From: Loxodes magnus
Taxonomy: Eukaryota > Ciliophora > Karyorelictea > Loxodida > Loxodidae
Length of the DNA stretch: 64,000 bases
Assembly: GCA_946699065.1 (NCBI GenBank)
Contig: CAMPDV010002056.1
Location: 20,027 to 84,026 of the forward strand
Direction: 5' to 3'
A program made the translations under genes and the position numbers. The notes below the pieces were generated by a model, which saw only the letters and a list, made by a program, of their open reading frames with translations, was not told where the DNA came from and did no database searches. Shown here piece by piece: positions 3,001-64,000 of this stretch. Every line of letters begins with the position of its first letter. Position 1 is the stretch's first letter.

Positions 3001-5437
3001 GACAGGTACCTGTAAGACCATGAGTGGTCACACTAGTTATGTATATGTTTTGACTATATCCAGTGATTCAGAGTTCATCGTATCGGGAAGTTATGATTCT
3101 ACGGTGAGACTATGGGACGTCAAGACAGGTACCTGTAAGACCATGAGTGGTCACACTAGTTATGTATATGCTGTGGCTATATCCAGTGATTCAGAGTTCA
3201 TCGTATCGGGAAGTTATGATTCTACGGTGAGACTATGGGACGTCAAGACAGGTACCTGTAAGACCATGAGTGGTCACACTAGTTATGTATATGCTGTGGC
3301 TATATCCAGTGATTCAGAGTTCATCGTATCGGGGAGTTATGAATCTACGGTGAGACTATGGGACGTCAAGACAGGTACCTGTAAGACCATGAGTGGTCAC
3401 ACTAGTTATGTATATGCTGTGGCTATATCCAGTGATTCAGAGTTCATCGTATCGGGAAGTTTAGATAAGACGGTGAGACTATGGGACGTCAAGACAGGTA
3501 CCTGTAAGACCATGAGTGGTCACACTAGTTATGTATATGCTGTGGCTATATCCAGTGATTCAGAGTTCATCGTATCGGGAAGTTTAGATAAGACGGTGAG
3601 ACTATGGGACGTCAAGACAGGTACCTGTAAGACCATGAGTGGTCACACTAGTTATGTATATGCTGTGGCTATATCCAGTGATTCAGAGTTCATCGTATCG
3701 GGAAGTTATGATTCTACGGTGAGACTATGGGACGTCAAGACAGGTACCTGTAAGACCATGAGTGGTCACACTAGTTATGTATATGCTGTGGCTATATCCA
3801 GTGATTCAGAGTTCATCGTATCGGGAAGTTATGATTCTACGGTGAGACTATGGGACTTCATGACAGGTACCTGTAAGACCATGAGTGGTCACACTAGTTA
3901 TGTATATGCTGTGGCTATATCCAGTGATTCAGAGTTCATCGTATCGGGGAGTTATGATTCTACGGTGAGACTATGGGACGTCAAGACAGGTACCTGTAAG
4001 ACCATGAGTGGTCACACTAGTTATGTATATGCTGTGGCTATATCCAGTGATTCAGAGTTCATCGTATCGGGAAGTTTAGATAAGACGGTGAGACTATGGG
4101 ACGTCAAGACAGGTACCTGTAAGACCATGAGTGGTCACACTAGTTATGTATATGCTGTGGCTATATCCAGTGATTCAGAGTTCATCGTATCGGGAAGTTA
4201 TGATTCTACGGTGAGACTATGGGACGTCAAGACAGGTACCTGTAAGACCATGAGTGGTCACACTAGTTATGTATATGCTGTGGCTATATCCAGTGATTCA
4301 GAGTTCATCGTATCGGGGAGTTATGATTCTACGGTGAGACTATGGGACGTCAAGACAGGTACCTGTAAGACCATGAGTGGTCACACTAGTTATGTATATG
4401 CTGTGGCTATATCCAGTGATTCAGAGTTCATCGTATCGGGAAGTTATGATTCTACGGTGAGACTATGGGACGTCAAGACAGGTACCTGTAAGACCATGAG
4501 TGGTCACACTAGTTATGTATATGCTGTGGCTATATCCAGTGATTCAGAGTTCATCGTATCGGGAAGTTATGATTCTACGGTGAGACTATGGGACGTCAAG
4601 ACAGGTACCTGTAAGACCATGAGTGGTCACACTAGTTATGTATATGCTGTGGCTATATCCAGTGATTCAGAGTTCATCGTATCGGGGAGTTATGATTCTA
4701 CGGTGAGACTATGGGACGTCAAGACAGGTACCTGTAAGACCATGAGTGGTCACACTAGTTATGTATATGCTGTGGCTATATCCAGTGATTCAGAGTTCAT
4801 CGTATCGGGAAGTTATGATTCTACGGTGAGACTATGGGACGTCAAGACAGGTACCTGTAAGACCATGAGTGGTCACACTAGTTATGTATATGCTGTGGCT
4901 ATATCCAGTGATTCAGAGTTCATCGTATCGGGAAGTTATGATTCTACGGTGAGACTATGGGACTTCATGACAGGTACCTGTAAGACCATGAGTGGTCACA
5001 CTAGTTATGTATATGCTGTGGCTATATCCAGTGATTCAGAGTTCATCGTATCGGGAAGTGATGATAATACGGTGAGACTAGGGGACGTCAAGACAGGTAC
5101 CTGTAAGACCATGAGTGGTCACACTAGTTCTTTATCATCTGTGGCTATATCCAGTGATTCAGAGTTCATCGTATCGGGAAGTGATGATAATACGGTGAGA
5201 CTATGGGACGTCAAGACAGGTACCTGTAAGACCATGAGTGGTCACACAGATTCTGTATATGCTGTGGCTATATCCAGTGATTCAGAGTTCATCGTATCGG
5301 GAAGTGATGATAAGACGGTGAGACTATGGGACGTCAAGACAGGTACCTGTAAGACCATGAGTGGTCACACTAGTTATGTATATGCTGTGGCTATATCCAG
5401 TGATTCAGAGTTCATCGTATCGGGAAGTGCAGATTAG
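2..5437 (+). CDS. WD40-repeat protein, partial, 5' end outside window
   Basis: The frame is open from base 2 to a TAG at 5435-5437, at least 1,811 codons and 44 WD40 units. The GTG at 29 is an internal Val codon, not a start, because no stop lies upstream in the window. WD40 blades form beta-propellers that bind proteins or other ligands. Such high-identity arrays are known at the C-terminus of STAND/NLR proteins, where an N-terminal effector and NACHT/NB-ARC domain precede them. Whether that holds here must be read from upstream sequence. Patch 1 is mostly SYVYAV, with NSVYVL and SYVYVL; patch 2 is YDS, LDK, DDS or YES. WDFM replaces WDVK in several units. A Trp-to-Gly change lies at 5081-5083. 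The size far exceeds a normal 7-blade domain. The TAG may be the real end, a nonsense mutation, or a sense codon. Confidence 0.75.
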   Translation: MVSGSLDKTVRLWDVKTGTCKTMSGHTSYVYAVAISSDSEFIVSGSYDSTVRLWDVKTGTCKTMSGHTSYVYAVAISSDSEFIVSGSYDSTVRLWDFMTGTCKTMSGHTSYVYAVAISSDSEFIVSGSLDKTVRLWDVKTGTCKTMSGHTSYVYAVAISSDSEFIVSGSLDKTVRLWDVKTGTCKTMSGHTNSVYVLTISSDSEFIVSGSLDKTVRLWDVKTGTCKTMSGHTSYVYAVAISSDSEFIVSGSYDSTVRLWDFMTGTCKTMSGHTSYVYAVAISSDSEFIVSGSYESTVRLWDVKTGTCKTMSGHTNSVYVLTISSDSEFIVSGSLDKTVRLWDVKTGTCKTMSGHTSYVYAVAISSDSEFIVSGSYDSTVRLWDFMTGTCKTMSGHTSYVYAVAISSDSEFIVSGSYESTVRLWDVKTGTCKTMSGHTSYVYAVAISSDSEFIVSGSDDSTVRLWDVKTGTCKTMSGHTSYVYVLTISSDSEFIVSGSLDKTVRLWDVKTGTCKTMSGHTSYVYAVAISSDSEFIVSGSYDSTVRLWDVKTGTCKTMSGHTSYVYAVAISSDSEFIVSGSLDKTVRLWDVKTGTCKTMSGHTSYVYAVAISSDSEFIVSGSDDSTVRLWDVKTGTCKTMSGHTNSVYVLTISSDSEFIVSGSLDKTVRLWDVKTGTCKTMSGHTSYVYVLTISSDSEFIVSGSLDKTVRLWDVKTGTCKTMSGHTSYVYAVAISSDSEFIVSGSYDSTVRLWDVKTGTCKTMSGHTSYVYAVAISSDSEFIVSGSYESTVRLWDVKTGTCKTMSGHTSYVYAVAISSDSEFIVSGSDDSTVRLWDVKTGTCKTMSGHTNSVYVLTISSDSEFIVSGSLDKTVRLWDVKTGTCKTMSGHTSYVYAVAISSDSEFIVSGSDDSTVRLWDFMTGTCKTMSGHTSYVYAVAISSDSEFIVSGSYESTVRLWDVKTGTCKTMSGHTSYVYAVAISSDSEFIVSGSDDSTVRLWDVKTGTCKTMSGHTSYVYVLTISSDSEFIVSGSYDSTVRLWDVKTGTCKTMSGHTSYVYAVAISSDSEFIVSGSYDSTVRLWDVKTGTCKTMSGHTSYVYAVAISSDSEFIVSGSYESTVRLWDVKTGTCKTMSGHTSYVYAVAISSDSEFIVSGSLDKTVRLWDVKTGTCKTMSGHTSYVYAVAISSDSEFIVSGSLDKTVRLWDVKTGTCKTMSGHTSYVYAVAISSDSEFIVSGSYDSTVRLWDVKTGTCKTMSGHTSYVYAVAISSDSEFIVSGSYDSTVRLWDFMTGTCKTMSGHTSYVYAVAISSDSEFIVSGSYDSTVRLWDVKTGTCKTMSGHTSYVYAVAISSDSEFIVSGSLDKTVRLWDVKTGTCKTMSGHTSYVYAVAISSDSEFIVSGSYDSTVRLWDVKTGTCKTMSGHTSYVYAVAISSDSEFIVSGSYDSTVRLWDVKTGTCKTMSGHTSYVYAVAISSDSEFIVSGSYDSTVRLWDVKTGTCKTMSGHTSYVYAVAISSDSEFIVSGSYDSTVRLWDVKTGTCKTMSGHTSYVYAVAISSDSEFIVSGSYDSTVRLWDVKTGTCKTMSGHTSYVYAVAISSDSEFIVSGSYDSTVRLWDVKTGTCKTMSGHTSYVYAVAISSDSEFIVSGSYDSTVRLWDFMTGTCKTMSGHTSYVYAVAISSDSEFIVSGSDDNTVRLGDVKTGTCKTMSGHTSSLSSVAISSDSEFIVSGSDDNTVRLWDVKTGTCKTMSGHTDSVYAVAISSDSEFIVSGSDDKTVRLWDVKTGTCKTMSGHTSYVYAVAISSDSEFIVSGSAD

Positions 5438-5440
5438 ACG
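3842..5440 (+). repeat. higher-order repeat A1, 13 units
   Basis: The block starts at a WDFM unit (gacttc at 3854) and ends with the GCA-GAT-TAG module. It is marked by YDS modules in which Gly is GGG rather than GGA (near 3949, 4317 and 4686) and by the Trp-to-Gly codon at 5081-5083. The same order recurs at 5810-7531 with one extra YDS unit. Confidence 0.9.
5435..5437 (+). other. first in-frame TAG (module GCA-GAT-TAG)
   Basis: This is the first in-frame stop. It sits at codon 40 of the repeat, where neighbours have AAG, AAT, GAG or TCT. The same three-codon module recurs in phase at the end of many later segments between 7.5 and 17 kb, and again at 45.5, 51.3, 51.6, 60.8-60.9, 62.6-62.8 and 63.98 kb. 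Each GCA-GAT-TAG differs from any of the common modules by about three bases, so the copies probably descend from one event. Confidence 0.9.
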
Positions 5441-7528
5441 GTGAGACTATGGGACGTCAAGACAGGTACCTGTAAGACCATGAGTGGTCACACTAGTGTT
5501 GTATATGCTGTGGCTATATCCAGTGATTCAGAGTTCATCGTATCGGGAAGTAGAGATAATACGGTGAGACTATGGGACGTCAAGACAGGTACCTGTAAGA
5601 CCATGAGTGGTCACACTAGTTATGTATATGCTGTGGCTATATCCAGTGATTCAGAGTTCATCGTATCGGGGAGTTATGATTCTACGGTGAGACTATGGGA
5701 CGTCAAGACAGGTACCTGTAAGACCATGAGTGGTCACACTAGTTATGTATATGCTGTGGCTATATCCAGTGATTCAGAGTTCATCGTATCGGGAAGTTAT
5801 GATTCTACGGTGAGACTATGGGACTTCATGACAGGTACCTGTAAGACCATGAGTGGTCACACTAGTTATGTATATGCTGTGGCTATATCCAGTGATTCAG
5901 AGTTCATCGTATCGGGGAGTTATGATTCTACGGTGAGACTATGGGACGTCAAGACAGGTACCTGTAAGACCATGAGTGGTCACACTAGTTATGTATATGC
6001 TGTGGCTATATCCAGTGATTCAGAGTTCATCGTATCGGGAAGTTTAGATAAGACGGTGAGACTATGGGACGTCAAGACAGGTACCTGTAAGACCATGAGT
6101 GGTCACACTAGTTATGTATATGCTGTGGCTATATCCAGTGATTCAGAGTTCATCGTATCGGGAAGTTATGATTCTACGGTGAGACTATGGGACGTCAAGA
6201 CAGGTACCTGTAAGACCATGAGTGGTCACACTAGTTATGTATATGCTGTGGCTATATCCAGTGATTCAGAGTTCATCGTATCGGGGAGTTATGATTCTAC
6301 GGTGAGACTATGGGACGTCAAGACAGGTACCTGTAAGACCATGAGTGGTCACACTAGTTATGTATATGCTGTGGCTATATCCAGTGATTCAGAGTTCATC
6401 GTATCGGGAAGTTATGATTCTACGGTGAGACTATGGGACGTCAAGACAGGTACCTGTAAGACCATGAGTGGTCACACTAGTTATGTATATGCTGTGGCTA
6501 TATCCAGTGATTCAGAGTTCATCGTATCGGGAAGTTATGATTCTACGGTGAGACTATGGGACGTCAAGACAGGTACCTGTAAGACCATGAGTGGTCACAC
6601 TAGTTATGTATATGCTGTGGCTATATCCAGTGATTCAGAGTTCATCGTATCGGGAAGTTATGATTCTACGGTGAGACTATGGGACGTCAAGACAGGTACC
6701 TGTAAGACCATGAGTGGTCACACTAGTTATGTATATGCTGTGGCTATATCCAGTGATTCAGAGTTCATCGTATCGGGGAGTTATGATTCTACGGTGAGAC
6801 TATGGGACGTCAAGACAGGTACCTGTAAGACCATGAGTGGTCACACTAGTTATGTATATGCTGTGGCTATATCCAGTGATTCAGAGTTCATCGTATCGGG
6901 AAGTTATGATTCTACGGTGAGACTATGGGACGTCAAGACAGGTACCTGTAAGACCATGAGTGGTCACACTAGTTATGTATATGCTGTGGCTATATCCAGT
7001 GATTCAGAGTTCATCGTATCGGGAAGTTATGATTCTACGGTGAGACTATGGGACTTCATGACAGGTACCTGTAAGACCATGAGTGGTCACACTAGTTATG
7101 TATATGCTGTGGCTATATCCAGTGATTCAGAGTTCATCGTATCGGGAAGTGATGATAATACGGTGAGACTAGGGGACGTCAAGACAGGTACCTGTAAGAC
7201 CATGAGTGGTCACACTAGTTCTTTATCATCTGTGGCTATATCCAGTGATTCAGAGTTCATCGTATCGGGAAGTGATGATAATACGGTGAGACTATGGGAC
7301 GTCAAGACAGGTACCTGTAAGACCATGAGTGGTCACACAGATTCTGTATATGCTGTGGCTATATCCAGTGATTCAGAGTTCATCGTATCGGGAAGTGATG
7401 ATAAGACGGTGAGACTATGGGACGTCAAGACAGGTACCTGTAAGACCATGAGTGGTCACACTAGTTATGTATATGCTGTGGCTATATCCAGTGATTCAGA
7501 GTTCATCGTATCGGGAAGTGCAGATTAG
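5441..7528 (+). pseudogene. in-frame WD40 segment, 17 units
   Basis: Seventeen WD40 units lie between the TAG at 5435 and the TAG at 7526-7528, in the same frame as the upstream CDS. It opens with a SVVYAV unit and then carries mainly SYVYAV/YDS units with one LDK and two WDFM units. It ends with the SSLSSV, DSVYAV and SYVYAV units seen before the first stop. There is no start codon beyond the internal ATG present in every unit (T-M-S), so it is unlikely to be an independent gene. It is either a decayed continuation of the upstream gene or, if TAG is sense or read through, part of the same protein. Confidence 0.55.
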
Positions 7529-7531
7529 ACG
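5810..7531 (+). repeat. higher-order repeat A2, 14 units
   Basis: This copy of 3842-5440 is longer by exactly one YDS unit. The WDFM-to-WDFM distance is 1,230 bp here and 1,107 bp in the first copy. It shares the Trp-to-Gly codon (7172-7174) and the GGG markers. A third, shorter version lies at 10361-11467 with the Trp-to-Gly codon at 11108-11110. Confidence 0.9.
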
Positions 7532-8758
7532 GTGAGACTATGGGACGTCAAGACAGGTACCTGTAAGACCATGAGTGGTCACACTAGTGTTGTATATGCT
7601 GTGGCTATATCCAGTGATTCAGAGTTCATCGTATCGGGAAGTAGAGATAATACGGTGAGACTATGGGACGTCAAGACAGGTACCTGTAAGACCATGAGTG
7701 GTCACACTAGTTATGTATATGCTGTGGCTATATCCAGTGATTCAGAGTTCATCGTATCGGGGAGTTATGATTCTACGGTGAGACTATGGGACGTCAAGAC
7801 AGGTACCTGTAAGACCATGAGTGGTCACACTAGTTATGTATCTGCTGTGGCTATATCCAGTGATTCAGAGTTCATCGTATCGGGAAGTGCAGATTAGACG
7901 GTGAGACTATGGGACGTCAAGACAGGTACCTGTAAGACCATGAGTGGTCACACAGATTCTGTATATGCTGTGGCTATATCCAGTGATTCAGAGTTCATCG
8001 TATCGGGAAGTGATGATAATACGGTGAGACTATGGGACTTCATGACAGGTACCTGTAAGACCATGAGTGGTCACACAGATTCTGTAAGATCTGTGGCTAT
8101 ATCCAGTGATTCAGAGTTCATCGTATCGGGAAGTGCAGATTAGACGGTGAGACTATGGGACGTCAAGACAGGTATCTGTAAGACCATGAGTGGTCACACA
8201 GATTCTGTATATGCTGTGGCTATATCCAGTGATTCAGAGTTCATCGTATCGGGAAGTGATGATAAAACGGTGAGACTATGGGACGTCAAGACAGGTACCT
8301 GTAAGACCATGAGTGGTCACACAGATTCTGTATATGCTGTGGCTATATCCAGTGATTCAGAGTTCATCGTATCGGGAAGTGATGATAATACGGTGAGACT
8401 ATGGGACGTCAAGACAGGTACCTGTAAGACCATGAGTGGTCACACAGATTCAATATATGCTGTGGCTATATCCAGTGATTCAGAGTTCATCGTATCGGGA
8501 AGTAGAGATAAGACGGTGAGACTATGGGACGTCAAGACAGGTACCTGTAAGACCATGAGTGGTCACACTAGTGTTGTATATGCTGTGGCTATATCCAGTG
8601 ATTCAGAGTTCATCGTATCGGGAAGTAGAGATAATACGGTGAGACTATGGGACGTCAAGACAGGTACCTGTAAGACCATGAGTGGTCACACAGATTCTTT
8701 ATCATCTGTGTCTATATCCAGTGATTCAGAGTTCATCGTATCGGGAAGTGCAGATTAG
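7532..8758 (+). pseudogene. WD40 segments of 3, 2 and 5 units, TAG-separated
   Basis: There are three in-frame stretches, 7532-7897, 7901-8143 and 8147-8758, each ending in GCA-GAT-TAG. They hold the rarer patch-1 modules SVVYAV, SYVSAV, DSVRSV, DSIYAV and DSLSSVS. The Asp-type patch (ACA-GAT-TCT) becomes common from here, whereas the left 5 kb uses ACT-AGT-TAT. The 8147 unit has ATC for ACC (Thr to Ile) near 8174. The same trio lies 3,936 bp downstream. Confidence 0.5.
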
Positions 8759-9499
8759 ACGGTGAGACTATGGGACGTCAAGACAGGTACCTGTAAGACC
8801 ATGAGTGGTCACACAGATTCTGTATATGCTGTGGCTATATCCAGTGATTCAGAGTTCATCGTATCGGGAAGTTGAGATAAGACGGTGAGACTATGGGACG
8901 TCAAGACAGGTACCTGTAAGACCATGAGTGGTCACACTAGTTATGTATATGCTGTGGCTATATCCAGTGATTCAGAGTTCATCGTATCGGGAAGTTATGA
9001 TTCTACGGTGAGACTATGGGACTTCATGACAGGTACCTGTAAGACCATGAGTGGTCACACAGATTCTGTATATGCTGTGGCTATATCCAGTGATTCAGAG
9101 TTCATCGTATCGGGAAGTTGAGATAAGACGGTGAGACTATGGGACGTCAAGACAGGTACCTGTAAGACCATGAGTGGTCACACAGATTCTGTATATGCTG
9201 TGGCTATATCCAGTGATTCAGAGTTCATCGTATCGGGAAGTTGAGATAATACGGTGAGACTATGGGACGTCAAGACAGGTACCTGTAAGACCATGAGTGG
9301 TCACACAGATTCTGTATTATCTGTAGCTATATCCAGTGATTCAGAGTTCATCGTATCGGGAAGTAGAGATAAGACTGTGAGACTATGGGACGTCAAGACA
9401 GGTACCTGTAAGACCATGAGTGGTCACACAGATTCTGTATATGCTGTGGCTATATCCAGTGATTCAGAGTTCATCGTATCGGGAAGTTGAGATAAGACG
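8759..9499 (+). pseudogene. stop-dense WD40 units, first TGA modules
   Basis: Single and paired units are separated by TGA codons (8873, 9119, 9242 and 9488). The longer open pieces are 8885-9121, which keeps a left-type SYVYAV/YDS unit followed by WDFM, and 9254-9490, which has the DSVLSV patch and an ACT-for-ACG synonymous change. This is the part that differs from the second 32-unit copy. Confidence 0.5.
8873..8875 (+). other. first in-frame TGA (codon 38)
   Basis: The first TGA replaces AGA (Arg) or TTA (Leu) just before the conserved B-C loop Asp. From here to the right edge TGA-GAT-AAG or TGA-GAT-AAT is the commonest in-frame stop module. One base change from AGA or TTA suffices to make it. 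Confidence 0.9.
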
Positions 9500-10357
9500 G
9501 TGAGACTATGGGACGTCAAGACAGGTACCTGTAAGACCATGAGTGGTCACACAGATTCTGTATTATCTGTGGCTATATCCAGTGATTCAGAGTTCATCGT
9601 ATCGGGAAGTAGAGATAAGACGGTGAGACTATGGGACGTCAAGACAGGTACCTGTAAGACCATGAGTGGTCACACAGATTCTGTATATGCTGTGGCTATA
9701 TCCAGTGATTCAGAGTTCATCGTATCGGGAAGTAGAGATAAGACGGTGAGACTATGGGACGTCAAGACAGGTACCTGTAAGACCATGAGTGGTCACACTA
9801 GTGTTGTATATGCTGTGGCTATATCCAGTGATTCAGAGTTCATCGTATCGGGAAGTGATGATAATACGGTGAGACTATGGGACGTCAAGACAGGTACCTG
9901 TAAGACCATGAGTGGTCACACAGATTCTGTATATGCTGTGGCTATATCCAGTGATTCAGAGTTCATCGTATCGGGAAGTGATGATAAGACGGTGAGACTA
10001 TGGGACGTCAAGACAGGTACCTGTAAGACCATGAGTGGTCACACTAGTTATGTATATGCTGTGGCTATATCCAGTGATTCAGAGTTCATCGTATCGGGAA
10101 GTAGAGATAATACGGTGAGACTATGGGACGTCAAGACAGGTACCTGTAAGACCATGAGTGGTCACACAGATTCTGTATATGCTGTGGCTATATCCAGTGA
10201 TTCAGAGTTCATCGTATCGGGAAGTGATGATAAGACGGTGAGACTATGGGACGTCAAGACAGGTACCTGTAAGACCATGAGTGGTCACACTAGTTATGTA
10301 TCTGCTGTGGCTATATCCAGTGATTCAGAGTTCATCGTATCGGGAAGTGCAGATTAG
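9500..10357 (+). pseudogene. in-frame WD40 segment, 7 units
   Basis: Seven units lie between a TGA and a GCA-GAT-TAG. Patch 1 is DSVLSV, DSVYAV, SVVYAV, DSVYAV, SYVYAV, DSVYAV, SYVSAV. Patch 2 is RDK, RDK, DDN, DDK, RDN, DDK, then the TAG module. Seven units could form one propeller in length, but the segment has no start of its own. An identical segment lies at 13436-14293. Confidence 0.5.
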
Positions 10358-10360
10358 ACG

Positions 10361-11464
10361 GTGAGACTATGGGACGTCAAGACAGGTACCTGTAAGACCA
10401 TGAGTGGTCACACTAGTTATGTATATGCTGTGGCTATATCCAGTGATTCAGAGTTCATCGTATCGGGAAGTTATGATTCTACGGTGAGACTATGGGACGT
10501 CAAGACAGGTACCTGTAAGACCATGAGTGGTCACACTAGTTATGTATATGCTGTGGCTATATCCAGTGATTCAGAGTTCATCGTATCGGGAAGTTATGAT
10601 TCTACGGTGAGACTATGGGACGTCAAGACAGGTACCTGTAAGACCATGAGTGGTCACACTAGTTATGTATATGCTGTGGCTATATCCAGTGATTCAGAGT
10701 TCATCGTATCGGGGAGTTATGATTCTACGGTGAGACTATGGGACGTCAAGACAGGTACCTGTAAGACCATGAGTGGTCACACTAGTTATGTATATGCTGT
10801 GGCTATATCCAGTGATTCAGAGTTCATCGTATCGGGAAGTTATGATTCTACGGTGAGACTATGGGACGTCAAGACAGGTACCTGTAAGACCATGAGTGGT
10901 CACACTAGTTATGTATATGCTGTGGCTATATCCAGTGATTCAGAGTTCATCGTATCGGGAAGTTATGATTCTACGGTGAGACTATGGGACTTCATGACAG
11001 GTACCTGTAAGACCATGAGTGGTCACACTAGTTATGTATATGCTGTGGCTATATCCAGTGATTCAGAGTTCATCGTATCGGGAAGTGATGATAATACGGT
11101 GAGACTAGGGGACGTCAAGACAGGTACCTGTAAGACCATGAGTGGTCACACTAGTTCTTTATCATCTGTGGCTATATCCAGTGATTCAGAGTTCATCGTA
11201 TCGGGAAGTGATGATAATACGGTGAGACTATGGGACGTCAAGACAGGTACCTGTAAGACCATGAGTGGTCACACAGATTCTGTATATGCTGTGGCTATAT
11301 CCAGTGATTCAGAGTTCATCGTATCGGGAAGTGATGATAAGACGGTGAGACTATGGGACGTCAAGACAGGTACCTGTAAGACCATGAGTGGTCACACTAG
11401 TTATGTATATGCTGTGGCTATATCCAGTGATTCAGAGTTCATCGTATCGGGAAGTGCAGATTAG
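10361..11464 (+). pseudogene. in-frame WD40 segment, 9 units
   Basis: Nine units repeat the end of the 5441-7528 segment: five SYVYAV/YDS units (one with GGG Gly), WDFM, the Trp-to-Gly unit (11108-11110), then SSLSSV, DSVYAV and SYVYAV units and the TAG module. It starts the second copy of the 32-unit repeat and is an island of left-type modules. Confidence 0.5.
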
Positions 11465-11467
11465 ACG

Positions 11468-13435
11468 GTGAGACTATGGGACGTCAAGACAGGTACCTGT
11501 AAGACCATGAGTGGTCACACTAGTGTTGTATATGCTGTGGCTATATCCAGTGATTCAGAGTTCATCGTATCGGGAAGTAGAGATAATACGGTGAGACTAT
11601 GGGACGTCAAGACAGGTACCTGTAAGACCATGAGTGGTCACACTAGTTATGTATATGCTGTGGCTATATCCAGTGATTCAGAGTTCATCGTATCGGGGAG
11701 TTATGATTCTACGGTGAGACTATGGGACGTCAAGACAGGTACCTGTAAGACCATGAGTGGTCACACTAGTTATGTATCTGCTGTGGCTATATCCAGTGAT
11801 TCAGAGTTCATCGTATCGGGAAGTGCAGATTAGACGGTGAGACTATGGGACGTCAAGACAGGTACCTGTAAGACCATGAGTGGTCACACAGATTCTGTAT
11901 ATGCTGTGGCTATATCCAGTGATTCAGAGTTCATCGTATCGGGAAGTGATGATAATACGGTGAGACTATGGGACTTCATGACAGGTACCTGTAAGACCAT
12001 GAGTGGTCACACAGATTCTGTAAGATCTGTGGCTATATCCAGTGATTCAGAGTTCATCGTATCGGGAAGTGCAGATTAGACGGTGAGACTATGGGACGTC
12101 AAGACAGGTATCTGTAAGACCATGAGTGGTCACACAGATTCTGTATATGCTGTGGCTATATCCAGTGATTCAGAGTTCATCGTATCGGGAAGTGATGATA
12201 AAACGGTGAGACTATGGGACGTCAAGACAGGTACCTGTAAGACCATGAGTGGTCACACAGATTCTGTATATGCTGTGGCTATATCCAGTGATTCAGAGTT
12301 CATCGTATCGGGAAGTGATGATAATACGGTGAGACTATGGGACGTCAAGACAGGTACCTGTAAGACCATGAGTGGTCACACAGATTCAATATATGCTGTG
12401 GCTATATCCAGTGATTCAGAGTTCATCGTATCGGGAAGTAGAGATAAGACGGTGAGACTATGGGACGTCAAGACAGGTACCTGTAAGACCATGAGTGGTC
12501 ACACTAGTGTTGTATATGCTGTGGCTATATCCAGTGATTCAGAGTTCATCGTATCGGGAAGTAGAGATAATACGGTGAGACTATGGGACGTCAAGACAGG
12601 TACCTGTAAGACCATGAGTGGTCACACAGATTCTTTATCATCTGTGTCTATATCCAGTGATTCAGAGTTCATCGTATCGGGAAGTGCAGATTAGACGGTG
12701 AGACTATGGGACGTCAAGACAGGTACCTGTAAGACCATGAGTGGTCACACAGGTTATGTATATGCTGTGGCTATATCCAGTAATTCAGAGTTCATCGTAT
12801 CGGGAAGTTGAGATAAGACGGTGAGACTATGGGACGTCAAGACAGGTACCTGTAAGACCATGAGTGGTCACACAGATTCTGTATATGCTGTGGCTATATC
12901 CAGTGATTCAGAGTTCATCGTATCGGGAAGTTGAGATAATACGGTGAGACTATGGGACGTCAAGACAGGTACCTGTAAGACCATGAGTGGTCACACAGAT
13001 TCTGTATATGCTGTGGCTATATCCAGTGATTCAGAGTTCATCGTATCGGGAAGTTGAGATAAGACGGTGAGACTATGGGACGTCAAGACAGGTACCTGTA
13101 AGACCATGAGTGGTCACACAGATTCTGTATATGCTGTGGCTATATCCAGTGATTCAGAGTTCATCGTATCGGGAAGTTGAGATAATACGGTGAGACTATG
13201 GGACGTCAAGACAGGTACCTGTAAGACCATGAGTGGTCACACAGATTCTGTATTATCTGTAGCTATATCCAGTGATTCAGAGTTCATCGTATCGGGAAGT
13301 AGAGATAAGACTGTGAGACTATGGGACGTCAAGACAGGTACCTGTAAGACCATGAGTGGTCACACAGATTCTGTATATGCTGTGGCTATATCCAGTGATT
13401 CAGAGTTCATCGTATCGGGAAGTTGAGATAAGACG
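11468..13435 (+). pseudogene. short WD40 segments of the second 32-unit copy
   Basis: Open pieces at 11468-11833, 11837-12079, 12083-12694 and 13190-13426 match pieces 3,936 bp upstream. Between 12695 and 13189 every unit ends in TGA, so no piece is longer than one unit. The unit at about 12696-12818 carries two private changes: Gly at patch position 1 (GYVYAV, after ACA) and Asn for Asp in the A-B turn. Confidence 0.5.
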
Positions 13436-14293
13436 GTGAGACTATGGGACGTCAAGACAGGTACCTGTAAGACCATGAGTGGTCACACAGATTCTGTATT
13501 ATCTGTGGCTATATCCAGTGATTCAGAGTTCATCGTATCGGGAAGTAGAGATAAGACGGTGAGACTATGGGACGTCAAGACAGGTACCTGTAAGACCATG
13601 AGTGGTCACACAGATTCTGTATATGCTGTGGCTATATCCAGTGATTCAGAGTTCATCGTATCGGGAAGTAGAGATAAGACGGTGAGACTATGGGACGTCA
13701 AGACAGGTACCTGTAAGACCATGAGTGGTCACACTAGTGTTGTATATGCTGTGGCTATATCCAGTGATTCAGAGTTCATCGTATCGGGAAGTGATGATAA
13801 TACGGTGAGACTATGGGACGTCAAGACAGGTACCTGTAAGACCATGAGTGGTCACACAGATTCTGTATATGCTGTGGCTATATCCAGTGATTCAGAGTTC
13901 ATCGTATCGGGAAGTGATGATAAGACGGTGAGACTATGGGACGTCAAGACAGGTACCTGTAAGACCATGAGTGGTCACACTAGTTATGTATATGCTGTGG
14001 CTATATCCAGTGATTCAGAGTTCATCGTATCGGGAAGTAGAGATAATACGGTGAGACTATGGGACGTCAAGACAGGTACCTGTAAGACCATGAGTGGTCA
14101 CACAGATTCTGTATATGCTGTGGCTATATCCAGTGATTCAGAGTTCATCGTATCGGGAAGTGATGATAAGACGGTGAGACTATGGGACGTCAAGACAGGT
14201 ACCTGTAAGACCATGAGTGGTCACACTAGTTATGTATCTGCTGTGGCTATATCCAGTGATTCAGAGTTCATCGTATCGGGAAGTGCAGATTAG
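13436..14293 (+). pseudogene. in-frame WD40 segment, 7 units (copy of 9500-10357)
   Basis: The order of variable modules is the same as at 9500-10357, 3,936 bp upstream, and it ends in GCA-GAT-TAG. It closes the second copy of the 32-unit repeat. Confidence 0.5.
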
Positions 14294-14296
14294 ACG

Positions 14297-16999: not shown

Positions 17000-17002
17000 A
17001 CG

Positions 17003-18100: not shown

Positions 18101-18109
18101 GATAAGACG
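17126..18109 (+). repeat. 4-unit (492-bp) tandem duplication
   Basis: Units 17126-17617 and 17618-18109 have the same module order and share the private TTA codon. A third copy lies at about 22169-22660 (TTA at 22385), where the final TGA module is replaced by RDK. Confidence 0.85.
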
Positions 18110-23143: not shown

Positions 23144-23152
23144 GATAAGACG

Positions 23153-25480: not shown

Positions 25481-25489
25481 GATAAGACG

Positions 25490-41224: not shown

Positions 41225-41233
41225 GATAAGACG

Positions 41234-42577: not shown

Positions 42578-42586
42578 GATAAGACG

Positions 42587-43438: not shown

Positions 43439-43447
43439 GATAAGACG

Positions 43448-44545: not shown

Positions 44546-44554
44546 GATAAGACG

Positions 44555-45283: not shown

Positions 45284-45292
45284 GATAAGACG

Positions 45293-47128: not shown

Positions 47129-47137
47129 GATAAGACG

Positions 47138-49219: not shown

Positions 49220-49228
49220 GATAAGACG

Positions 49229-49720
49229 GTGAGACTATGGGACGTCAAGACAGGTACCTGTAAGACCATGAGTGGTCACACAGATTCTGTATTATCTGTA
49301 GCTATATCCAGTGATTCAGAGTTCATCGTATCGGGAAGTGATGATGAGACGGTGAGACTATGGGACGTCAAGACAGGTACCTGTAAGACCATGAGTGGTC
49401 ACACAGATTCTGTATATGCTGTGGCTATATCCAGTGATTCAGAGTTCATCGTATCGGGAAGTGATGATAAGACGGTGAGACTATGGGACGTCAAGACAGG
49501 TACCTGTAAGACCATGAGTGGTCACACAGATTCTTTATATGCTGTGGCTATATCCAGTGATTCAGAGTTCATCGTATCGGGAAGTTGAGATAAGACGGTG
49601 AGACTATGGGACGTCAAGACAGGTACCTGTAAGACCATGAGTGGTCACACTAGTTATGTATATGCTGTGGCTATATCCAGTGATTCAGAGTTCATCGTAT
49701 CGGGAAGTTGAGATAAGACG
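49229..49720 (+). pseudogene. WD40 segments of 3 and 1 units
   Basis: 49229-49588 plus a single SYVYAV unit repeat 47507-47998, 1,722 bp upstream. Both end in TGA. Confidence 0.5.
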
Positions 49721-51064: not shown

Positions 51065-51073
51065 GATAAGACG

Positions 51074-54000: not shown

Positions 54001-54517
54001 CGTATCGGGAAGTAGAGATAAGACGGTGAGACTATGGGACGTCAAGACAGGTACCTGTAAGACCATGAGTGGTCACACTAGTTATGTATATGCTGTGGCT
54101 ATATCCAGTGATTCAGAGTTCATCGTATCGGGAAGTTATGAATCTACGGTGAGACTATGGGACGTCAAGACAGGTACCTGTAAGACCATGAGTGGTCACA
54201 CTAGTTATGTATATGCTGTGGCTATATCCAGTGATTCAGAGTTCATCGTATCGGGAAGTAGAGATAAGACGGTGAGACTATGGGACGTCAAGACAGGTAC
54301 CTGTAAGACCATGAGTGGTCACACTAGTTATGTATATGCTGTGGCTATATCCAGTGATTCAGAGTTCATCGTATCGGGAAGTTGAGATAAGACGGTGAGA
54401 CTATGGGACGTCAAGACAGGTACCTGTAAGACCATGAGTGGTCACACTAGTTATGTATATGCTGTGGCTATATCCAGTGATTCAGAGTTCATCGTATCGG
54501 GAAGTTGAGATAAGACG
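51074..54517 (+). repeat. 47-unit-offset duplicated block, copy 2 (5,781 bp)
   Basis: Copy of 45293-48736, including both GCA-GAT-TAG modules (51314-51316 and about 51557). Its middle (52427-53287) has more TGA and lacks the YES unit of copy 1 at 46646. The boundary on the right is approximate. Confidence 0.85.
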
Positions 54518-54763
54518 GTGAGACTATGGGACGTCAAGACAGGTACCTGTAAGACCATGAGTGGTCACACAGATTCTGTATATGCTGTGGCTATATCCAG
54601 TGATTCAGAGTTCATCGTATCGGGAAGTAGAGATAAGACGGTGAGACTATGGGACGTCAAGACAGGTACCTGTAAGACCATGAGTGGTCACACAGATTCT
54701 GTATATGCTGTGGCTATATCCAGTGATTCAGAGTTCATCGTATCGGGAAGTTGAGATAAGACG
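51074..54763 (+). pseudogene. stop-rich WD40 segments of 2-5 units
   Basis: Open pieces are 51074-51316, 51566-52048, 52181-52540, 52550-52909, 52919-53278, 53288-53647, 53780-54385 and 54518-54754, with single units between. The 53780 piece has a YES module near 54137. Stops are TGA except two TAG near the left end. Confidence 0.5.
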
Positions 54764-55492
54764 GTGAGACTATGGGACGTCAAGACAGGTACCTGTAAGA
54801 CCATGAGTGGTCACACAGATTCTGTATATGCTGTGGCTATATCCAGTGATTCAGAGTTCATCGTATCGGGAAGTAGAGATAAGACGGTGAGACTATGGGA
54901 CGTCAAGACAGGTACCTGTAAGACCATGAGTGGTCACACAGATTCTGTATATGCTGTGGCTATATCCAGTGATTCAGAGTTCATCGTATCGGGAAGTAGA
55001 GATAAGACGGTGAGACTATGGGACGTCAAGACAGGTACCTGTAAGACCATGAGTGGTCACACAGATTCTGTATTATCTGTAGCTATATCCAGTGATTCAG
55101 AGTTCATCGTATCGGGAAGTGATGATGAGACGGTGAGACTATGGGACGTCAAGACAGGTACCTGTAAGACCATGAGTGGTCACACAGATTCTGTATTATC
55201 TGTAGCTATATCCAGTGATTCAGAGTTCATCGTATCGGGAAGTGATGATGAGACGGTGAGACTATGGGACGTCAAGACAGGTACCTGTAAGACCATGAGT
55301 GGTCACACAGATTCTGTATATGCTGTGGCTATATCCAGTGATTCAGAGTTCATCGTATCGGGAAGTGATGATAATACGGTGAGACTATGGGACGTCAAGA
55401 CAGGTACCTGTAAGACCATGAGTGGTCACACAGATTCTGTATATGCTGTGGCTATATCCAGTGATTCAGAGTTCATCGTATCGGGAAGTTGA
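54764..55492 (+). pseudogene. in-frame WD40 segment, 6 units
   Basis: All six patch-1 modules are Asp-type (DSVYAV or DSVLSV), with RDK, DDE or DDN at patch 2. The last five units are duplicated immediately downstream. Confidence 0.5.
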
Positions 55493-56116
55493 GATAAGAC
55501 GGTGAGACTATGGGACGTCAAGACAGGTACCTGTAAGACCATGAGTGGTCACACAGATTCTGTATATGCTGTGGCTATATCCAGTGATTCAGAGTTCATC
55601 GTATCGGGAAGTAGAGATAAGACGGTGAGACTATGGGACGTCAAGACAGGTACCTGTAAGACCATGAGTGGTCACACAGATTCTGTATTATCTGTAGCTA
55701 TATCCAGTGATTCAGAGTTCATCGTATCGGGAAGTGATGATGAGACGGTGAGACTATGGGACGTCAAGACAGGTACCTGTAAGACCATGAGTGGTCACAC
55801 AGATTCTGTATTATCTGTAGCTATATCCAGTGATTCAGAGTTCATCGTATCGGGAAGTGATGATGAGACGGTGAGACTATGGGACGTCAAGACAGGTACC
55901 TGTAAGACCATGAGTGGTCACACAGATTCTGTATATGCTGTGGCTATATCCAGTGATTCAGAGTTCATCGTATCGGGAAGTGATGATAATACGGTGAGAC
56001 TATGGGACGTCAAGACAGGTACCTGTAAGACCATGAGTGGTCACACAGATTCTGTATATGCTGTGGCTATATCCAGTGATTCAGAGTTCATCGTATCGGG
56101 AAGTTGAGATAAGACG
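54887..56116 (+). repeat. 5-unit (615-bp) tandem duplication
   Basis: 54887-55501 and 55502-56116 have the same five modules: DSVYAV/RDK, DSVLSV/DDE, DSVLSV/DDE, DSVYAV/DDN, DSVYAV/TGA. The middle pair is itself a one-unit doubling. Confidence 0.9.
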
Positions 56117-58330
56117 GTGAGACTATGGGACGTCAAGACAGGTACCTGTAAGACCATGAGTGGTCACACTAGTTATGTATATGCTGTGGCTATATCCAGT
56201 GATTCAGAGTTCATCGTATCGGGAAGTTGAGATAAGACGGTGAGACTATGGGACGTCAAGACAGGTACCTGTAAGACCATGAGTGGTCACACAGATTCTG
56301 TATATGCTGTGGCTATATCCAGTGATTCAGAGTTCATCGTATCGGGAAGTAGAGATAAGACGGTGAGACTATGGGACGTCAAGACAGGTACCTGTAAGAC
56401 CATGAGTGGTCACACAGATTCTGTATATGCTGTGGCTATATCCAGTGATTCAGAGTTCATCGTATCGGGAAGTAGAGATAAGACGGTGAGACTATGGGAC
56501 GTCAAGACAGGTACCTGTAAGACCATGAGTGGTCACACAGATTCTGTATATGCTGTGGCTATATCCAGTGATTCAGAGTTCATCGTATCGGGAAGTTGAG
56601 ATAAGACGGTGAGACTATGGGACGTCAAGACAGGTACCTGTAAGACCATGAGTGGTCACACAGATTCTGTATTATCTGTAGCTATATCCAGTGATTCAGA
56701 GTTCATCGTATCGGGAAGTAGAGATAAGACGGTGAGACTATGGGACGTCAAGACAGGTACCTGTAAGACCATGAGTGGTCACACAGATTCTGTATATGCT
56801 GTGGCTATATCCAGTGATTCAGAGTTCATCGTATCGGGAAGTAGAGATAAGACGGTGAGACTATGGGACGTCAAGACAGGTACCTGTAAGACCATGAGTG
56901 GTCACACAGATTCTGTATATGCTGTGGCTATATCCAGTGATTCAGAGTTCATCGTATCGGGAAGTAGAGATAAGACGGTGAGACTATGGGACGTCAAGAC
57001 AGGTACCTGTAAGACCATGAGTGGTCACACAGATTCTGTATATGCTGTGGCTATATCCAGTGATTCAGAGTTCATCGTATCGGGAAGTTGAGATAAGACG
57101 GTGAGACTATGGGACGTCAAGACAGGTACCTGTAAGACCATGAGTGGTCACACAGATTCTGTATTATCTGTAGCTATATCCAGTGATTCAGAGTTCATCG
57201 TATCGGGAAGTGATGATGAGACGGTGAGACTATGGGACGTCAAGACAGGTACCTGTAAGACCATGAGTGGTCACACAGATTCTGTATATGCTGTGGCTAT
57301 ATCCAGTGATTCAGAGTTCATCGTATCGGGAAGTGATGATAAGACGGTGAGACTATGGGACGTCAAGACAGGTACCTGTAAGACCATGAGTGGTCACACA
57401 GATTCTTTATATGCTGTGGCTATATCCAGTGATTCAGAGTTCATCGTATCGGGAAGTAGAGATAAGACGGTGAGACTATGGGACGTCAAGACAGGTACCT
57501 GTAAGACCATGAGTGGTCACACAGATTCTGTATATGCTGTGGCTATATCCAGTGATTCAGAGTTCATCGTATCGGGAAGTAGAGATAAGACGGTGAGACT
57601 ATGGGACGTCAAGACAGGTACCTGTAAGACCATGAGTGGTCACACAGATTCTGTATATGCTGTGGCTATATCCAGTGATTCAGAGTTCATCGTATCGGGA
57701 AGTTGAGATAAGACGGTGAGACTATGGGACGTCAAGACAGGTACCTGTAAGACCATGAGTGGTCACACTAGTTATGTATATGCTGTGGCTATATCCAGTG
57801 ATTCAGAGTTCATCGTATCGGGAAGTAGAGATAAGACGGTGAGACTATGGGACGTCAAGACAGGTACCTGTAAGACCATGAGTGGTCACACTAGTTATGT
57901 ATATGCTGTGGCTATATCCAGTGATTCAGAGTTCATCGTATCGGGAAGTAGAGATAAGACGGTGAGACTATGGGACGTCAAGACAGGTACCTGTAAGACC
58001 ATGAGTGGTCACACTAGTTATGTATATGCTGTGGCTATATCCAGTGATTCAGAGTTCATCGTATCGGGAAGTTGAGATAAGACGGTGAGACTATGGGACG
58101 TCAAGACAGGTACCTGTAAGACCATGAGTGGTCACACTAGTTATGTATATGCTGTGGCTATATCCAGTGATTCAGAGTTCATCGTATCGGGAAGTAGAGA
58201 TAAGACGGTGAGACTATGGGACGTCAAGACAGGTACCTGTAAGACCATGAGTGGTCACACAGATTCTGTATATGCTGTGGCTATATCCAGTGATTCAGAG
58301 TTCATCGTATCGGGAAGTTGAGATAAGACG
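55502..58330 (+). pseudogene. WD40 segments of 2-5 units
   Basis: Open pieces are 55502-56107, 56240-56599, 56609-57091, 57101-57706, 57716-58075 and 58085-58321. All stops are TGA. DSVYAV/RDK is the dominant unit, and runs of it look like recent one-unit expansions. Confidence 0.5.
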
Positions 58331-59797
58331 GTGAGACTATGGGACGTCAAGACAGGTACCTGTAAGACCATGAGTGGTCACACTAGTTATGTATATGCTG
58401 TGGCTATATCCAGTGATTCAGAGTTCATCGTATCGGGAAGTAGAGATAAGACGGTGAGACTATGGGACGTCAAGACAGGTACCTGTAAGACCATGAGTGG
58501 TCACACAGATTCTGTATATGCTGTGGCTATATCCAGTGATTCAGAGTTCATCGTATCGGGAAGTGATGATAATACGGTGAGACTATGGGACGTCAAGACA
58601 GGTACCTGTAAGACCATGAGTGGTCACACAGATTCTTTATATGCTGTGGCTATATCCAGTGATTCAGAGTTCATCGTATCGGGAAGTAGAGATAAGACGG
58701 TGAGACTATGGGACGTCAAGACAGGTACCTGTAAGACCATGAGTGGTCACACTAGTTCTTTATCATCTGTGGCTATATCCAGTGATTCAGAGTTCATCGT
58801 ATCGGGAAGTGATGATAATACGGTGAGACTATGGGACGTCAAGACAGGTACCTGTAAGACCATGAGTGGTCACACTAGTTATGTATATGCTGTGGCTATA
58901 TCCAGTGATTCAGAGTTCATCGTATCGGGAAGTAGAGATAATACGGTGAGACTATGGGACGTCAAGACAGGTACCTGTAAGACCATGAGTGGTCACACTA
59001 GTTCTTTATCATCTGTGGCTATATCCAGTGATTCAGAGTTCATCGTATCGGGAAGTGATGATAATACGGTGAGACTATGGGACGTCAAGACAGGTACCTG
59101 TAAGACCATGAGTGGTCACACAGATTCTGTATATGCTGTGGCTATATCCAGTGATTCAGAGTTCATCGTATCGGGAAGTAGAGATAAGACGGTGAGACTA
59201 TGGGACGTCAAGACAGGTACCTGTAAGACCATGAGTGGTCACACAGATTCTGTATTATCTGTAGCTATATCCAGTGATTCAGAGTTCATCGTATCGGGAA
59301 GTGATGATGAGACGGTGAGACTATGGGACGTCAAGACAGGTACCTGTAAGACCATGAGTGGTCACACAGATTCTGTATTATCTGTAGCTATATCCAGTGA
59401 TTCAGAGTTCATCGTATCGGGAAGTGATGATGAGACGGTGAGACTATGGGACGTCAAGACAGGTACCTGTAAGACCATGAGTGGTCACACAGATTCTGTA
59501 TATGCTGTGGCTATATCCAGTGATTCAGAGTTCATCGTATCGGGAAGTGATGATAAGACGGTGAGACTATGGGACGTCAAGACAGGTACCTGTAAGACCA
59601 TGAGTGGTCACACAGATTCTGTATATGCTGTGGCTATATCCAGTGATTCAGAGTTCATCGTATCGGGAAGTGATGATAATACGGTGAGACTATGGGACGT
59701 CAAGACAGGTACCTGTAAGACCATGAGTGGTCACACTAGTTCTTTATCATCTGTGGCTATATCCAGTGATTCAGAGTTCATCGTATCGGGAAGTTGA
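58331..59797 (+). pseudogene. in-frame WD40 segment, 12 units
   Basis: At 488 codons it is the longest open stretch in the last 20 kb. From here to the end SSLSSV units with GTG dominate, paired mostly with DDN. It ends in a TGA-GAT-AAT module. Confidence 0.5.
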
Positions 59798-59806
59798 GAT
59801 AATACG

Positions 59807-62800
59807 GTGAGACTATGGGACGTCAAGACAGGTACCTGTAAGACCATGAGTGGTCACACTAGTTATGTATATGCTGTGGCTATATCCAGTGATTCAGAGT
59901 TCATCGTATCGGGAAGTAGAGATAATACGGTGAGACTATGGGACGTCAAGACAGGTACCTGTAAGACCATGAGTGGTCACACAGATTCTGTATATGCTGT
60001 GGCTATATCCAGTGATTCAGAGTTCATCGTATCGGGAAGTGATGATAATACGGTGAGACTATGGGACGTCAAGACAGGTACCTGTAAGACCATGAGTGGT
60101 CACACTAGTTCTTTATCATCTGTGGCTATATCCAGTGATTCAGAGTTCATCGTATCGGGAAGTTGAGATAATACGGTGAGACTATGGGACGTCAAGACAG
60201 GTACCTGTAAGACCATGAGTGGTCACACTAGTTCTTTATCATCTGTGGCTATATCCAGTGATTCAGAGTTCATCGTATCGGGAAGTTGAGATAAGACGGT
60301 GAGACTATGGGACGTCAAGACAGGTACCTGTAAGACCATGAGTGGTAACACTAGTTCTTTATCATCTGTGGCTATATCCAGTGATTCAGAGTTCATCGTA
60401 TCGGGAAGTGATGATAATACGGTGAGACTATGGGACGTCAAGACAGGTACCTGTAAGACCATGAGTGGTCACACAGATTCTGTATATGCTGTGGCTATAT
60501 CCAGTGATTCAGAGTTCATCGTATCGGGAAGTTGAGATAAGACGGTGAGACTATGGGACGTCAAGACAGGTACCTGTAAGACCATGAGTGGTCACACAGA
60601 TTCTGTATATGCTGTGGCTATATCCAGTGATTCAGAGTTCATCGTATCGGGAAGTGATGATAATACGGTGAGACTATGGGACGTCAAGACAGGTACCTGT
60701 AAGACCATGAGTGGTCACACTAGTTCTTTATCATCTGTGGCTATATCCAGTGATTCAGAGTTCATCGTATCGGGAAGTGCAGATTAGACGGTGAGACTAT
60801 GGGACGTCAAGACAGGTACCTGTAAGACCATGAGTGGTCACACTAGTTATGTATATGCTGTGGCTATATCCAGTGATTCAGAGTTCATCGTATCGGGAAG
60901 TGCAGATTAGACGGTGAGACTATGGGACGTCAAGACAGGTACCTGTAAGACCATGAGTGGTCACACTAGTTATGTATATGCTGTGGCTATATCCAGTGAT
61001 TCAGAGTTCATCGTATCGGGAAGTTGAGATAAGACGGTGAGACTATGGGACGTCAAGACAGGTACCTGTAAGACCATGAGTGGTCACACAGATTCAATAT
61101 ATGCTGTGGCTATATCCAGTGATTCAGAGTTCATCGTATCGGGAAGTAGGGATAAGACGGTGAGACTATGGGACGTCAAGACAGGTACCTGTAAGACCAT
61201 GAGTGGTCACACTAGTTCTTTATCATCTGTGGCTATATCCAGTGATTCAGAGTTCATCGTATCGGGAAGTAGAGATAAGACGGTGAGACTATGGGACGTC
61301 AAGACAGGTACCTGTAAGACCATGAGTGGTCACACTAGTTCTTTATCATCTGTGGCTATATCCAGTGATTCAGAGTTCATCGTATCGGGAAGTTGAGATA
61401 AGACGGTGAGACTATGGGACGTCAAGACAGGTACCTGTAAGACCATGAGTGGTCACACTAGTTCTTTATCATCTGTGGCTATATCCAGTGATTCAGAGTT
61501 CATCGTATCGGGAAGTGATGATAATACGGTGAGACTATGGGACGTCAAGACAGGTACCTGTAAGACCATGAGTGGTCACACAGATTCTGTATATGCTGTG
61601 GCTATATCCAGTGATTCAGAGTTCATCGTATCGGGAAGTTGAGATAAGACGGTGAGACTATGGGACGTCAAGACAGGTACCTGTAAGACCATGAGTGGTC
61701 ACACTAGTTATGTATATGCTGTGGCTATATCCAGTGATTCAGAGTTCATCGTATCGGGAAGTTGAGATAAGACGGTGAGACTATGGGACGTCAAGACAGG
61801 TACCTGTAAGACCATGAGTGGTCACACAGATTCAATATATGCTGTGGCTATATCCAGTGATTCAGAGTTCATCGTATCGGGAAGTGATGATAATACGGTG
61901 AGACTATGGGACGTCAAGACAGGTACCTGTAAGACCATGAGTGGTCACACTAGTTCTTTATCATCTGTGGCTATATCCAGTGATTCAGAGTTCATCGTAT
62001 CGGGAAGTTGAGATAATACGGTGAGACTATGGGACGTCAAGACAGGTACCTGTAAGACCATGAGTGGTCACACTAGTTCTTTATCATCTGTGGCTATATC
62101 CAGTGATTCAGAGTTCATCGTATCGGGAAGTTGAGATAAGACGGTGAGACTATGGGACGTCAAGACAGGTACCTGTAAGACCATGAGTGGTAACACTAGT
62201 TCTTTATCATCTGTGGCTATATCCAGTGATTCAGAGTTCATCGTATCGGGAAGTGATGATAATACGGTGAGACTATGGGACGTCAAGACAGGTACCTGTA
62301 AGACCATGAGTGGTCACACAGATTCTGTATATGCTGTGGCTATATCCAGTGATTCAGAGTTCATCGTATCGGGAAGTTGAGATAAGACGGTGAGACTATG
62401 GGACGTCAAGACAGGTACCTGTAAGACCATGAGTGGTCACACAGATTCTGTATATGCTGTGGCTATATCCAGTGATTCAGAGTTCATCGTATCGGGAAGT
62501 GATGATAATACGGTGAGACTATGGGACGTCAAGACAGGTACCTGTAAGACCATGAGTGGTCACACTAGTTCTTTATCATCTGTGGCTATATCCAGTGATT
62601 CAGAGTTCATCGTATCGGGAAGTGCAGATTAGACGGTGAGACTATGGGACGTCAAGACAGGTACCTGTAAGACCATGAGTGGTCACACTAGTTATGTATA
62701 TGCTGTGGCTATATCCAGTGATTCAGAGTTCATCGTATCGGGAAGTGCAGATTAGACGGTGAGACTATGGGACGTCAAGACAGGTACCTGTAAGACCATG

Positions 62801-64000
62801 AGTGGTCACACTAGTTATGTATATGCTGTGGCTATATCCAGTGATTCAGAGTTCATCGTATCGGGAAGTTGAGATAAGACGGTGAGACTATGGGACGTCA
62901 AGACAGGTACCTGTAAGACCATGAGTGGTCACACAGATTCAATATATGCTGTGGCTATATCCAGTGATTCAGAGTTCATCGTATCGGGAAGTAGGGATAA
63001 GACGGTGAGACTATGGGACGTCAAGACAGGTACCTGTAAGACCATGAGTGGTCACACTAGTTCTTTATCATCTGTGGCTATATCCAGTGATTCAGAGTTC
63101 ATCGTATCGGGAAGTAGAGATAAGACGGTGAGACTATGGGACGTCAAGACAGGTACCTGTAAGACCATGAGTGGTCACACTAGTTCTTTATCATCTGTGG
63201 CTATATCCAGTGATTCAGAGTTCATCGTATCGGGAAGTTGAGATAAGACGGTGAGACTATGGGACGTCAAGACAGGTACCTGTAAGACCATGAGTGGTCA
63301 CACTAGTTCTTTATCATCTGTGGCTATATCCAGTGATTCAGAGTTCATCGTATCGGGAAGTGATGATAATACGGTGAGACTATGGGACGTCAAGACAGGT
63401 ACCTGTAAGACCATGAGTGGTCACACAGATTCTGTATATGCTGTGGCTATATCCAGTGATTCAGAGTTCATCGTATCGGGAAGTTGAGATAAGACGGTGA
63501 GACTATGGGACGTCAAGACAGGTACCTGTAAGACCATGAGTGGTCACACTAGTTATGTATATGCTGTGGCTATATCCAGTGATTCAGAGTTCATCGTATC
63601 GGGAAGTTGAGATAAGACGGTGAGACTATGGGACGTCAAGACAGGTACCTGTAAGACCATGAGTGGTCACACAGATTCAATATATGCTGTGGCTATATCC
63701 AGTGATTCAGAGTTCATCGTATCGGGAAGTGATGATAATACGGTGAGACTATGGGACGTCAAGACAGGTACCTGTAAGACCATGAGTGGTCACACTAGTT
63801 ATGTATATGCTGTGGCTATATCCAGTGATTCAGAGTTCATCGTATCGGGAAGTTGAGATAATACGGTGAGACTATGGGACGTCAAGACAGGTACCTGTAA
63901 GACCATGAGTGGTCACACAGATTCTGTATATGCTGTGGCTATATCCAGTGATTCAGAGTTCATCGTATCGGGAAGTGCAGATTAGACGGTGAGACTATGG
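59807..64000 (+). pseudogene. stop-dense WD40 units to right edge
   Basis: Open pieces of two or three units only: 59807-60166, 60299-60535, 60545-60787, 61037-61396, 61406-61642, 61775-62011, 62144-62380, 62390-62632, 62882-63241, 63251-63487 and 63620-63856. Both TGA and TAG occur, with a final TAG at 63983-63985. Two units have His-to-Asn in the GH dipeptide (60347 and 62192). The array continues past the window. Confidence 0.5.
60176..63865 (+). repeat. 15-unit (1,845-bp) tandem higher-order repeat
   Basis: 60176-62020 and 62021-63865 abut. They share the His-to-Asn codon (60347 and 62192), a synonymous AGG for AGA Arg (61148 and 62993) and all stops. They differ in the last unit, SSLSSV in the first and SYVYAV in the second. 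Confidence 0.92.

Follow-up and report, generated by a model that had tools for sequence, protein, structure and literature searches.

The sequence described here stands closest to two known systems. Karyorelict ciliates such as Loxodes use NCBI genetic code 27, in which TAA and TAG encode Gln and TGA serves both as Trp and as terminator; this is already known biology. The Loxodes study describes Loxodes magnus as a user of this code, gives its macronuclear assembly as 706 Mbp, and states that karyorelict UGA is sense where a sufficient distance separates it from the downstream poly-A tail (PMC11441545). The second system is formed by the HNWD/NWD repeats of the NOD-like receptors (NLRs) of Podospora anserina, which combine a conserved WD40 framework with four variable codons, set as two pairs 18 codons apart, and bear signs of homogenisation between loci (PMC2873952, PMC4986451). 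In HNWD units, codons 7, 9, 25 and 27 are reported to be under positive selection and Trp is among the residues used there (PMC2873952). We analysed a 64,000-nucleotide stretch of L. magnus DNA, hereafter the window, which forms the final 64 kb of the 84,026-bp contig C2056 (C2056:20027-84026). We conclude with high confidence that the window is a hypervariable array of WD40 blades in a karyorelict ciliate, and that its in-frame TGA and TAG codons are sense alleles for Trp and Gln.

Meaning of TGA and TAG in the host assembly

Under the standard table, the frame that opens at window base 2 yields 133 stops, 108 TGA and 25 TAG, and this count is what could be said for a pseudogene array in which they are genuine nonsense codons. 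A sequence-only reading of the window had seen about 130 such stops, TGA at one codon of the repeat unit, TAG at another and no TAA, and had proposed Trp and Gln as their meanings. To assign the codons, conserved gene families were sought in the same assembly (705,730,643 bases). PROCN (PRP8) gave a single match, with 5 TGA, 2 TAG and 12 TAA within it. When 1271 codons of PRP8 were aligned to 120 homologues (of 598 found), all 12 of 12 TGA fell in Trp columns (97% W over the 120 homologues), and Gln columns held 18 of 31 TAA and 7 of 11 TAG (25 of 42 together). As controls, columns at TGG were 90% W (19 columns) and those at CAA/CAG 45% Q (15 columns).

Actin genes gave the same meanings. Each of the 43 best matches contains 5-7 TAG and 2-4 TAA, and the two actins displayed terminate in HRKCF-TGA. 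An actin paralogue on C15 carries TGA at two conserved Trp sites and also ends in HRKCF-TGA. TGA was the terminator at all five inferred gene ends examined (actins L026, L028 and L033; kinase-WD40 genes L013 and L037). The actin family is itself amplified, with 43 matches of at least 450 bits, many of them on the same few contigs (C266, C707, C711, C524, C437 and others). A change in eRF1, which the sequence-only reading had suggested looking for, is present: the N domain has RAQNIKS in place of the TASNIKS of its best PDB match, 4crn. There are two eRF1 N-domain matches 35 kb apart (C196:19713-20081 and C196:54613-54981), RAQNIKS being in the one read. The best match of the eRF1 family search, L035, looks like Pelota and was not used.

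Judged from this codon usage, the host nuclear code is NCBI code 27, and a code in which TGA and TAG act as terminators only is excluded. The standard-code interpretation was rejected on the PRP8 and actin genes of the same assembly, which read TGA and TAG as sense. It could stand only if the window were contamination, and sister units of the window repeat sit in kinase genes of this assembly that have open frames only with TAA and TAG as sense. We regard it as extremely improbable. We saw no difference from the published karyorelict code, which the window merely displays at high density in one repeat.

The window array and its variable codons

The window could be cut into 520 units of exactly 123 bp, with uniform spacing and no indel in 64 kb (Table 1), and these fall into 92 distinct versions. 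In a Pfam scan, the opening 492 codons of the window frame gave a curated WD40 match (PF00400, 422 bits). With unit codons numbered 0-40 from the ATC codon, all 108 TGA sit at codon 5 and all 25 TAG at codon 7, and TAA is absent from the window frame. Within the 520 whole units, TGA occurs only before GAT-AAG or GAT-AAT and TAG only after GCA-GAT. Because TGA and TAG are sense in the host code, the window, as translated from its DNA, is a single open frame of 21,333 codons, in agreement with the more than 21,000 codons anticipated earlier.

Table 1. Positions of the array and of selected elements within the window
Feature	Position	Strand	Details
WD40 array	1..64000	+	520 whole 123-bp units and partial ends; frame from base 2
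Units 1-44	2..5413	+	without TGA or TAG
First in-frame TAG	5435..5437	+	unit 45, codon 7, S-A-D-Q
First in-frame TGA	8873..8875	+	unit 73, codon 5, S-W-D-K
Units 210-227, 18-unit block	25709..27922	+	exact copy at units 231-248 (28292-30505)
Last in-frame TAG	63983..63985	+	in partial last unit

Variation within the unit is concentrated. Entropy peaks at codons 5, 7, 28 and 30 (2.26, 1.66, 1.22 and 1.16 bits), and 14 of the 41 codons are identical in all 520 units. Read with code 27, S-W-D-[KN]-T-V and S-A-D-Q-T-V are sense alleles at two of the unit's four most variable codons, and codons 5 and 7 are probably recognition positions. The 2-16-2 spacing of the HNWD codons is matched by window codons 28, 30, 46 and 48, the last two being codons 5 and 7 of the next unit. 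By this likeness, the variable codons would be ligand-contact residues diversified by selection.

The left cassettes of the units (codons 5-7) pair with several different right cassettes (codons 26-33), and the units therefore recombine. TGA occurs in two left cassettes and TAG in one, each paired with 5-10 right cassettes, so that the 133 stops are not independent events. Exactly repeated blocks reach 18 units, reflecting either recent block amplification or assembly duplication. That the first 44 units lack TGA and TAG, raised earlier as a point against sense codons, is true; these units form a block of other sub-types, 41 of the 44 having the left cassettes LDK, YDS, YES or DDS, which explains the absence. 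A stop can be reached from the consensus unit in one step by 15 paths at 12 codons, and only codons 5 and 7 are occupied. The lack of framework stops proves little alone, because only 17 distinct one-step framework variants exist among the 672 units of C2056 and chance would yield about 0.6 framework stops.

An array of this kind could be a giant expressed gene whose transcript is translated across every TGA and TAG codon, giving a product longer than 24,000 residues. The code-27 frame is open from about 9.7 kb of C2056 to the contig end, with no indel in the window; an open frame of 13,065 codons is tool-reported for a sister array on C2039; and the sense reading of karyorelict UGA far from the poly-A tail (PMC11441545) would permit such a message. 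However, C2056, read throughout except for 26 bases just before the window, is all repeat, and the sequence read showed neither a start or terminator nor a kinase or unique flank. Framework changes look neutral and other arrays have frame-shifted edges, which also speaks against translation. We therefore consider a giant gene unlikely, and the window array is most likely, as far as its DNA indicates, a by-product or reservoir and not the message for one giant protein. An Rfam scan of the part of C2056 ahead of the window (L001) gave no match. Near the contig start, L001:1-9700 has 7 non-triplet unit spacings versus 0 in the window, which may be real decay or a poorly polished contig end.

Kinase-propeller genes and sister unit families

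Related blades are found in compact genes. L013 (C512) comprises an ATG, a protein kinase, a putative 20-nt GT-AG intron, seven blades and a terminal TGA; its kinase has 23 TAA/TAG codons ahead of the putative intron (the predicted protein P0001 shows 24, its end entering the intron). The intron length compares with a published mean of 19.3 nt (PMC11441545). L037 (C193) repeats the L013 design from the kinase end onward, and C1503 starts within a third kinase gene (L019), truncated by the contig end. Kinase-WD40 frames in the assembly are open only if TAA and TAG are sense.

Both L013 and L037 have sense TGA 112-240 codons upstream of the terminal TGA, in keeping with the published karyorelict code. 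In their last 102 (L013) or 89 (L037) codons, Trp is spelled only TGG, as it should be if termination at UGA is confined to the 3' end region. Moreover, where blades 2, 4 and 5 of L037 have TGA, blade 7 has TGG, and this use of both codons at one blade position bears out the proposal that TGA is Trp. An AlphaFold model of the L037 propeller with TGA as Trp (21 relatives aligned) scored 97.6 in the predicted local distance difference test (pLDDT) and contained 27 strands, consistent with seven propeller blades.

Searches of the assembly turned up 99,458 first-look candidates for the WD40 family and 152,265 for the window protein; 150 were scored in each case, and neither figure is a count of units. 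Loci on nine other contigs revealed two sister families with units of 126 bp, called F2 and F3; the window family is F1. Blades 1-5 of the compact genes are F2 units or near F2, and blades 6-7 are diverged. In codon tables of the nine commonest codons per position, TGA of the sister arrays lies mostly at variable codons. In F2 (1033 units) it occurs at codons 13 (183), 19 (215), 21 (140) and 7 (2), and in F3 (154 units) at codon 19 (82). TAA is found at F2 codons 39 (19) and 19 (2). TAG stands at the F2 framework Gln codons 5 and 29, in 9 units each, and is silent there because CAG to TAG is synonymous under code 27; elsewhere in F2 it was seen 4 times, over codons 14, 31 and 34. F2 codons 19, 21, 37 and 39 are variable at the HNWD spacing too, as are F2 codons 13 and 18 outside it. 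The 3' edge of the C1503 array (L022) ends KV-TGA-NF-TGA, with TGA at a framework Trp and then a possible stop before AT-rich DNA.

Trp is an ordinary residue at several of these sites. Among 120 natural WD40 proteins (best of 4550), where the W background is 2.8%, W makes up 12.3% of 162 residues at GHxx[x]V, where it is joint first; at S[x]DxTV its share is 8.0% of 313 and at GHxxxV[x] 4.9% of 162. The ratio of nonsynonymous to synonymous change (dN/dS) between F2 and F3 is 0.13 for the framework and 0.17 across the full unit; F1 against F3 gives 0.23 (F1 versus F2 is saturated). Such low ratios between families mean that the units evolved as protein.

Several observations weigh against reading the window as sense-coding blades of a recognition system. 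At the level of codons, 2 of the 4 internal TGA of the C15 actin paralogue are at non-Trp columns; natural WD40 proteins offer no parallel (W 0/78) for the TGA at F2 codon 13, present in 183 units; and Q at the second x of SxDxTV reaches only 3.8% of 313, less than K and N. In the window and sister codon tables, TGA was not seen at array framework Trp codons, where TGT, TTG, GGG and TAG were. A conserved Trp that is always TGG, the earlier counterpoint, can follow from homogenisation. At the level of the arrays, framework changes look neutral (synonymous in 3/17, 18/56 and 5/15, with about 25% expected); these changes, which had also been held against sense codons, are real, but they bear on array expression and not on codon meaning. 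Length changes in the sampled arrays were non-triplet in 35 cases and triplet in 2 (none in the window), 20 of the 35 coming from loci that include the end of an array or contig, and L007 accounting for 10. Finally, no compact gene among those seen has the window unit type F1; at the 5' array edges L014, L016 and L017 no kinase was found by eye within about 0.9 kb or among the listed kinase matches; and the 3' edge L022 lacks C-terminal blades.

Origin and possible use of the arrays

These neutral framework changes, together with decayed edges and block duplications, are what a pure satellite would show, that is, a blade unit in runaway tandem amplification with no present function, along which TGA and TAG drifted. 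The 231 Mb of tandem repeats reported for the macronuclear assembly (PMC11441545) would accommodate it. Drift alone, however, would not be expected to focus variation on four recognition-type codons while 14 of 41 stay invariant, unless this focus was inherited from diversified genes, which is possible. We give a pure satellite a little less than an even chance.

Comparison of arrays with genes points to exchange between them. The F2 blades of the three genes have 88% mean identity; the kinase exons of L013 and L019 are 81.5% and their linkers 61% identical. With equal sample sizes, all 10 of 10 gene blades were by mean nearer to array units than to other kinase genes' blades, and for single blades array units were nearer in 44-100% of 500 draws; equal-size sampling shrinks the closeness seen when 1029 array units are set against 6-8 blades. 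Kinase matches (113 scored of 4506 candidates) occur on 7 of 8 array contigs, 7 matches against 0.57 expected by length, a rough figure given that the contigs, the nine listed minus C512 (whose match is the compact gene), headed the list from which they were chosen. The GC content at third codon positions (GC3) is 0.46-0.47 in blades 1-5 of L013 and L037, 0.38-0.39 in blades 6-7 and 0.28-0.29 in the kinase, compared with 0.24 in PRP8; it is 0.38 in the L019 blades, whose frame is unverified.

Array-gene closeness, kinase co-location and raised GC3 fit recombination among arrays and genes, which would shuffle and homogenise the units. Untranslated arrays might then act as a recombination reservoir that supplies variable cassettes to kinase-WD40 genes and so diversifies their propellers; the raised GC3 of blades 1-5 is as biased gene conversion would give. 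However, the four-codon combination was present among the 1029 sampled array units for only 5 of the 10 gene blades, and we rate a reservoir as possible, with the chances clearly on the other side.

Of 73 minus-strand kinases, 23 lie no more than 15 kb from a contig start, against 2 of the 40 plus-strand kinases, and this asymmetry is real. The idea that such kinases run straight into giant WD40 arrays was rejected by reading five starts: four are other AT-rich tandem repeats (L038-L041) and one (C1503, L019) holds the kinase gene's own blades. L038-L041 are the starts of C620, C9, C119 and C5, and kinase genes tend to face such starts; in L038, charged, coiled-coil-like repeats make up an open frame.

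The Loxodes units share with Podospora HNWD the conserved framework, the paired variable codons, the use of Trp and signs that loci homogenise one another. They differ in the ciliate host, in arrays of hundreds of units, in Trp and Gln alleles spelled TGA, TAG and TAA, and in the domain ahead of the propeller: in the one compact gene scanned with Pfam, neither NACHT nor NB-ARC was found, the four families there being all kinase, where the fungal proteins have NACHT/HET. Proteins that join kinase and WD40/beta-propeller Pfam families also occur in other organisms or metagenomes (P0146 from Siphonaria, P0165, P0169 from Rhizoctonia, and P0040) and are possible parallels. A hypervariable WD40 repertoire with arrays was not found in the open-licence papers searched, and WD40 is absent from the main text of the Loxodes paper, as far as that text was available (PMC11441545).

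In the broadest view, Loxodes would hold a very large hypervariable recognition repertoire, in which kinase-propeller sensors take blade cassettes from arrays of hundreds to thousands of units, reassigned stops supply, as a main source, Trp and Gln for the contact positions, and some arrays are perhaps read as very long frames. We offer this as a speculation with rather low odds. The stops in the window are settled as sense codons of a known code, and gene finders using the standard code would shred such arrays. The arrays may belong to a ciliate repertoire for non-self recognition that has the design of fungal NLRs but is linked to kinases, and the feeding of receptor diversity by tandem blade arrays becomes testable.

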